The position numbers were made by a program, and so were the translations under genes. The notes under the pieces are model-generated. The model searched no databases. It was given only the letters and a program-made list of their open reading frames with translations, and was not told the origin of the DNA. From Bryoerythrophyllum caledonicum (taxonomy: Eukaryota; Streptophyta; Bryopsida; Pottiales; Pottiaceae): DNA of 64,000 bases. The stretch is taken from positions 20,022,637 to 20,086,636 of the forward strand of contig OZ020515.1 of NCBI GenBank assembly GCA_963971425.1. The letters are read 5' to 3'. This document shows positions 9,930-10,639 of this stretch, one piece after another; positions within the stretch are counted from its first letter, which is position 1; the number at the start of each line of letters is the position of its first letter.

Positions 9930-10639
9930 TAGCGTCAAACAACGCTACAACCAAAAACAATATAGTATATATATATACTAAAAAATATACTAAGTACAAA
10001 AATAAATATAGAAACATAAATAAAATAAAACAAAAAACTTCCATAGTATATTTATATACTACAATATATATCAACAACAACAACAACAACAACAACAACA
10101 ACAACAACAACAACAACAACAACAACAACAACAACAACAACAACAACAACAACAACAACAACAACAACAACAACAACAACAACAACAACAACAACAACAA
10201 CAACAACAACAACAACAACAACAACAACAACAACAACAACAACAACAACAACAACAACAACAACAACAACAACAACAACAACAACAACAACAACAACAAC
10301 AACAACAACAACAACAAACAACAACAACACTCCATAGGCATCATTCATTGCAAGCTACTTATTATACTTTGCGGAGACATAGAAACTAACCCAGGCCCAT
10401 TGCCGGATGTATTTCAAAATCATCCAAAAACACACAAAAGATTAGCAAAAACATATTTCATTCCGAATACTATAAAACTCCACCCCGAATATCAACAACT
10501 AGCATCTTCATTTGCACCACTCCTAAAAAACAATCACATACTCCACCAAAACTATTCCACCCTCTACCCCAATATTTCCCGCTACATTAACCAAAAAAAA
10601 ACAACAACCATCCATCCGCACATATCCTATTTGCCATAA
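9905..10639 (+). CDS. Linker frame: poly-Asn plus 2A-like recoding motif
   Basis: An open frame (-1 relative to ORF1) overlaps the last 25 nt of ORF1 and runs to TAA at 10637. It has no ATG. It encodes about 81 consecutive Asn codons from the (AAC)n block (10073-10315), a few Gln, then LLIILCGDIETNPGP (10355-10399) and 80 further codons. DIETNPGP fits the 2A consensus D(V/I)ExNPGP, preceded by the hydrophobic stretch typical of 2A peptides. At 2A sites the ribosome skips the Gly-Pro bond (here between 10394-10396 and 10397-10399), giving two proteins from one frame. 2A peptides are known near the start of ORF2 in several non-LTR retrotransposons, for example trypanosome L1Tc. The frame overlaps ORF2 at 10591-10639, where an A9 run (10593-10601) could allow a -1 shift. 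Translation from this frame is inferred. Confidence 0.72.
   Translation, partial: KQDGHVKLIASNNATTKNNIVYIYTKKYTKYKNKYRNINKIKQKTSIVYLYTTIYINNNNNNNNNNNNNNNNNNNNNNNNNNNNNNNNNNNNNNNNNNNNNNNNNNNNNNNNNNNNNNNNNNNNNNNNNNNNNNNNNKQQQHSIGIIHCKLLIILCGDIETNPGPLPDVFQNHPKTHKRLAKTYFIPNTIKLHPEYQQLASSFAPLLKNNHILHQNYSTLYPNISRYINQKKTTTIHPHISYLP
10072..10317 (+). repeat. (AAC)n microsatellite between ORF1 and ORF2
   Basis: About 81 uninterrupted AAC/CAA units, then one A insertion (CAAACAA) and a few more CAA units. It lies inside the LINE, in the open frame leading to the 2A motif (poly-Asn in that frame). Minus-strand poly-Val and poly-Leu frames over it are artefacts. Confidence 0.97.
10373..10399 (+). promoter_or_regulatory. 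2A-like ribosome-skipping motif GDIETNPGP
   Basis: The nine codons GGA GAC ATA GAA ACT AAC CCA GGC CCA match the 2A consensus at every defined position. An upstream hydrophobic run (CKLLIILC, 10349-10372) supports function. It lies upstream of the APE domain, between ORF1 and the body of ORF2. Confidence 0.85.

Follow-up and report, generated by a model that had tools for sequence, protein, structure and literature searches.

The stretch encoding DIETNPGP in the non-LTR retrotransposon described here is very probably a genuine 2A (StopGo, ribosome-skipping) signal, carried by a Dualen-type family (APE-type plus restriction-like endonuclease, RLE) in a land-plant genome. The window (the whole stretch of DNA that was analysed, 64 kb) encodes at 10349-10399 of the plus strand the 2A-like peptide CKLLIILCGDIETNPGP, in which an L/I-rich run ending in CG is followed by the octapeptide DIETNPGP (10376-10399); skipping is predicted between the glycine at 10394-10396 and the proline at 10397-10399. 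The octapeptide fits the pattern (D/G/C/N)(V/I)ExNPGP and, as the initial annotation stated, fills all defined positions of D(V/I)ExNPGP, with a hydrophobic stretch before it. The annotation was equally right to place the motif in an open frame between ORF1 and the APE domain of a long non-LTR retrotransposon; this frame runs from 9905 to 10636 on the plus strand and is bounded by stops at 9902-9904 and 10637-10639. Immediately before the aspartate (p12) stands LIILCG (LLIILCG in the translation), judged by eye to be an L-rich hexapeptide ending (A/S/C)G; L-rich upstream motifs 2 and 6 go with p12 = D, according to the available text of a recent survey (PMC12846837).

The features of the element are all on the plus strand. 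ORF1 (8343-9929, 528 aa) likely starts at the ATG at 8343, the listed ORF beginning with a GTG at 7875. It has 73 relatives in a protein search, of which 21 were aligned with it; the AlphaFold2 model built on the resulting 22-row alignment has RRM-like folds in tandem and, C-terminally, a long coiled coil (mean pLDDT 64, moderate). The best Foldseek matches of this model are nucleolin RRMs and NONO/SFPQ, and Pfam gave no match in ORF1. ORF2 extends from 11302, the first ATG in its frame, to 17436. The APE-type endonuclease is placed at 11053-11805, with its start estimated from a TWN motif and the Pfam match (Exo_endo_phos_2) covering 11419-11805; the fold is seen in the model of a relative, P0135. 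It is followed by a reverse transcriptase (RT; RVT_1, 12919-13710, E 2e-28), to which the R2 RT is nearest among solved structures in the PDB, by a PCIF1_WW-family domain (15175-15558, E 3.7e-10), by an RNase H (15970-16395, E 1.7e-12), and by a C-terminal zinc knuckle (CxxC...H) with a restriction-like endonuclease motif (KPD...E...K) at 16762-17166. The element ends in (TTC)7 at 17650-17670, and a TTC-repeat tail is also found in two further copies in the window (copies B and C).

Two of these domains need comment. The PCIF1_WW family is that of the cap-adenosine methyltransferase PCIF1. The place of the NPPF motif reads AHPHN in the window copy, and ANPEY or AHPxx in most of the relatives caught by the pattern, so catalysis by this domain is doubtful. 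A PCIF1_WW-family domain is common to many relatives; no report of a PCIF1-like domain in LINEs was found in the literature searched. Assignment of the RLE draws on an 11-row C-terminal alignment, which includes 10 of the 120 listed RT-search matches and in which CxxC...H and PD are invariant and the K is nearly invariant near the C-terminus. The profile made from this alignment matches R2 at the zinc knuckle (i-E 1.7e-6) and, in the same order, weakly in the next stretch (i-E 1); a phmmer search of the PDB with just the C-terminal part from the window gave no RLE match. The motif and its order after the RT point to an RLE.

Plant L1 LINEs have an APE without an RLE and carry a poly(A) tail. 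Since the present element has an RLE motif and a TTC-repeat tail, not poly(A), it is not an ordinary plant L1 and, in its domain order, shows the Dualen/RandI plan (APE, RT, PCIF1-like domain, RNase H, zinc knuckle plus RLE motif). An (A)n tail is given for 224 of 233 flowering-plant L1 families in the available text of one study (PMC3747384). Dualen is defined by APE plus RLE, and RNase H is present in Dualen/RandI, as far as the available text of another goes (PMC4640811); here an APE-type endonuclease lies upstream of the RT, and the RNase H match is clear. Among the best 120 of 130 RT-search matches, those that carry an organism name come mainly from green algae (Haematococcus, Parachlorella, Pleodorina), plus one nematode; the comparison included no reference Dualen RT, and its sole tree is one of APE domains. 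The description of the element as a plant LINE is well supported as to plant host and APE/RT, but needs amending to Dualen-like, not ordinary plant L1.

The host is very likely a land plant, judging from the coding content of the window. An ORF near the element has a SAM_LFY (LEAFY-type) domain (E 3.3e-7; Ginkgo LFY in the PDB, E 0.0077), and a Myb_DNA-bind_4 (Myb/SANT-like) domain is also found near it (E 1.5e-8); the Myb/SANT-like domain falls at 18248-19781, with the LEAFY-like SAM domain nearby. Exons at 35999-43517, spanning about 7.5 kb, look like those of a LUMINIDEPENDENS homeobox gene; the exons tried against Pfam gave no match, and one of them gave weak homeodomain matches in the PDB (E 0.12). 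The window has two additional, diverged copies of this LINE, and the element therefore belongs to the host genome. Copy B (main stretch 47666-52899, whole 47666-53123) has 69-72% DNA identity and copy C (main stretch 27550-28600, whole 27550-28866) 75%; both are 5'-truncated and end short of the motif. Conservation of the motif in relatives and the plant-type domains in the window give good support to a plant LINE with a 2A ahead of its APE/RT.

The copy that carries the motif in the window (copy A) is decayed. From the upstream stop to the motif, the 2A frame has no ATG. A one-base offset separates this frame from that of the APE/RT, which becomes open only at 10591, behind a stop at 10588-10590, and the reading frame of the linker following the 2A (10400-11052) changes in the interval from the stop at 10588 to that at 10639. 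The zinc knuckle has lost its last Cys, replaced by Phe, which copy C keeps as Cys. Between ORF1 and the 2A, a (CAA)n microsatellite of about 86 copies (10072-10329) encodes poly-Asn in the frame of the 2A. The annotated position upstream of APE/RT holds, but in copy A the two do not share a frame, and the 2A frame closes at 10637; in the predicted proteins P0003, P0133, P0134, and P0135, 2A and APE/RT lie in one continuous frame. A programmed frameshift is not favoured as the cause of the offset, because the relatives keep one continuous frame. Copy A probably makes no leader-released catalytic product today.

Conservation of the motif was followed in proteins found with the N-terminal part of P0003 (17 matches including P0003 itself). 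In a 17-row alignment of the window and 16 relatives, from which P0136 was left out because it begins inside the APE, the motif stands at the same place in all 16 relatives, in two of them with a broken NPGP; the query that retrieved 15 of the 16 clade relatives contained the motif, which favours motif-bearing rows. The 9-column core has a mean pairwise identity of 0.816 against a median of 0.47 for 280 nine-column windows from the motif into the APE, and ranks third among them, behind a pair of overlapping windows at the IQETK motif of the APE (0.821). The nearest relatives, P0133, P0134, and P0135, share 59-61% identity over 77-79 aa round the motif (E about 1e-29), and all have the strict D(V/I)ExNPGP. 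The initial annotation had raised the prospect of other copies without DxExNPGP, and here the picture is mixed: the other window copies end short of the motif, while among the clade relatives the strict form is found in 5 of 16 (the three nearest included) and NPGP is intact in 14, the remaining two reading NPDP and NLGP. Position p14 is E in six relatives, Q in five, H in four, and K in one. As 10 of the 16 lack E at p14, and one NPDP and one NLGP occur, the signal is altered or lost in some lineages. Most of the p14 variants could still act, some of them partly, because p14 = H is reported to be over 95% active, and E14Q to have been 26% or 56% active in earlier work, in the available text of the survey (PMC12846837).

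The family spread of the motif is wider than this clade. A loose pattern (E, H, Q, or K at p14, some NPGP breaks allowed) detects a 2A-like octapeptide in 31 of the 136 proteins from both searches; 20 fit (D/G/C/N)(V/I)ExNPGP, and 18 have the strict D form. In 24 of the 31 the six residues preceding the core finish with (A/S/C)G, and in 28 when GG is also accepted. An APE match was obtained in 104 of the 136, and 66 have a located APE with at least 250 aa upstream. Among these 66, all 14 proteins from the N-terminal search, whose query contained the motif, carry it, as do 15 of 52 from the RT-region search (130 matches, best 120 listed), whose query did not. Ten of the 15 are labelled as from the green alga Haematococcus lacustris, and the 19 Haematococcus-labelled proteins under the same rule divide into 10 with the motif and 9 without. 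Gene-model truncation may account for its lack in some of the 37 remaining RT-search proteins.

Ninety-one rows had enough APE for a tree, and the 2A label was followed over 65 of them, the 26 without enough upstream sequence being left out. All 15 rows of the clade that includes the window have the 2A (support 100/99). The label calls for at least nine gains or losses, six of them forced by well-supported branches, as against 21.5 in shuffles; the 2A is clustered on the tree yet gained or lost several times, and the deep part of the tree is unsure because of long branches. Two motif-bearing proteins have poor APE matches: P0131 has none and stands outside the tree, and that of P0062 is incomplete. 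Among contigs, the viral ones gave 10 and 14 pattern-matching stretches, none encoding a relative; genome contigs gave 59, of which four loci in records titled as bacterial MAGs encode relatives at 31-34% identity. No 2A was seen at these four distant loci, whose upstream parts may be incomplete. The MAG-titled contigs with ORF2 relatives assigned to Mollicutes and Clostridiales (L001-L003) are probably eukaryotic contamination.

The leader, up to the glycine, measures 56 to 623 aa in the clade, lengths that rest on predicted start codons, and has little shared sequence; four of the longer leaders (P0125, P0128, P0130, P0131) have a similar N-terminal hydrophobic segment. In the model of P0135 the leader and 2A have a pLDDT under 50 and are followed by an all-helical domain (residues 67-243), corresponding to the linker, and then by the APE fold; the motif is predicted to lie outside any fold. 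No CCHC zinc knuckle was found in the leaders of the 31 motif-bearing proteins. Fusion of ORF1 to the leader in relatives was considered and set aside, the ORF1 profile having no match (E up to 10) in the 136 proteins. After the motif and before the RT, P0062 (Haematococcus) has a Josephin domain and P0042 an OTU domain, which in P0021 is below the Pfam cut-off. A protease in the linker is not indicated in P0135, where the linker is predicted helical; matches to the APE domain took up the fold-search results, however, and a diverged relationship may have gone unseen.

The presence of the motif, its position, its conservation, and its spread through the family are observed directly, and its skipping activity and purpose are inferred from them. 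In working copies, the ribosome would translate the poorly conserved leader after ORF1 and reach GD(I/V)ExNPG; the Gly-Pro bond would not be made, the leader would be released, and the ribosome would continue from the proline. The catalytic polyprotein (helical domain, APE, RT, PCIF1-like domain, RNase H, RLE) would thereby be made with a fixed N-terminus. The likely role of the 2A is thus release of the leader from the helical-domain-APE-RT polyprotein. The initial annotation had proposed that the 2A splits an N-terminal linker from APE/RT; an N-terminal part would indeed be released, but this would be the upstream leader, the linker downstream of the motif remaining attached to APE/RT. One may speculate that skipping fixes the N-terminus of the enzyme whatever the start site. 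It is possible, if rather unlikely, that the 2A is an N-terminus normaliser, which strips leaders of any length and sequence, arising from varied upstream starts or from fusion with whatever lies ahead of the element, and gives every enzyme molecule one and the same N-terminal proline, with Q or H at p14 tuning the fused share; were this true, recoding would let a land-plant and green-algal LINE tolerate variable 5' junctions.

Three other explanations of the motif were weighed. A fortuitous match within decayed non-coding DNA separating two ORFs might be entertained for copy A considered by itself, given its decay, lack of an in-frame ATG, frame offset, and (CAA)n expansion, but can practically be dismissed. 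The six-frame translation of the window contains a single NPGP and a single D(V/I)ExNPGP; only 6e-5 full matches are expected per window from the amino-acid composition of the six frames, positions being taken as independent, and 200 order-2 Markov simulations of the window produced no full match and 84 bare NPGP in total. The homologous, collinear motif in 16 relatives, with E-values down to 1e-29, already refutes coincidence. A relic of skipping is a more substantial alternative, though still improbable: the ancestor would have skipped, and the motif would now be vestigial or partly active, with ORF2 made fused to the leader. The Q, H, or K at p14 in 10 of the 16 clade relatives, the two broken NPGPs, and the state of the window copy, out of frame with the APE and lacking an upstream in-frame ATG, all fit such a loss; they have to be set against a core that few stretches up to the APE exceed in conservation, strict matches in the three nearest relatives, and the activities published for p14 = H and E14Q, high and partial, respectively (PMC12846837, available text).

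The stretch might also be conserved as a protein feature of ORF2p, a signal-like or binding peptide, and not for skipping, which we consider very improbable. The short hydrophobic run before the motif lends itself to this explanation, and a 2A-like signal sequence of sea urchin is described as having both functions in the available text of PMC4981915. The conserved positions, however, are those that define a 2A, and it is the leader and hydrophobic run that vary; over the 24 residues that precede the core, the highest Kyte-Doolittle average of any 12-residue segment stays under 1.0 for 13 of the 16 clade relatives, a low value for a signal peptide, and it is higher (1.6-2.3) in the Haematococcus proteins. 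The predicted disorder of the motif in P0135 also argues against a protein feature.

2A peptides in LINEs are known from trypanosomes and animals; Odon and colleagues reportedly described them in 2013 in APE-type non-LTR elements of multicellular organisms, and the founding Dualen paper is said to be that of Kojima and Fujiwara of 2005. Trypanosome L1Tc and animal APE-type LINEs likewise have a 2A-like octapeptide in frame with APE-type LINE proteins, whereas the present family has a Dualen-like combination of APE and RLE motif, a probable land-plant host, named relatives that are mostly green algal, and many Q or H residues at p14. With the Dualen/RandI elements of Chlamydomonas and other green algae it shares the APE, RT, RNase H, and C-terminal zinc knuckle plus RLE motif in ORF2; it differs in its land-plant host, and perhaps also in the 2A before the APE and in the PCIF1-like domain. 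The viral StopGo/2A of the L-rich type, as presented in the available text of PMC12846837, also has GD(V/I)ExNPGP after an L-rich hexapeptide ending (A/S/C)G, with p12 = D, but here the sequence is carried by a retrotransposon. In the 2A of sea-urchin NLR proteins, which similarly lies towards the N-terminus of a cellular protein and works in plant cells (Nicotiana leaf), the peptide doubles as a signal sequence (PMC4981915, available text), unlike the present case, with leaders of 56-623 aa and a hydrophobic run that is weak in most of the clade.

No report of a native 2A in a plant, green-algal, or Dualen LINE was found in the literature searched, which did not reach Odon 2013 and Rao 2025; the 2026 survey, in its available text, found no evidence of natural StopGo use by plant viruses and rates it rare in cellular genes (PMC12846837). 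2A peptides are in use in plant biotechnology, and native use in the plant lineage is without report in the literature searched. A conserved native 2A in land-plant and green-algal LINEs would offer sequences evolved on plant-lineage ribosomes, including a natural p14 series (E, Q, H, K) available for testing, and would widen recoding in retrotransposons to the dual-endonuclease type.

Rfam and tRNA scans of the window gave nothing. Tandem arrays at 1812-2169 and 17734-17858 have a similar 27-base unit, the second beginning about 60 bases past the 3' end of the LINE.
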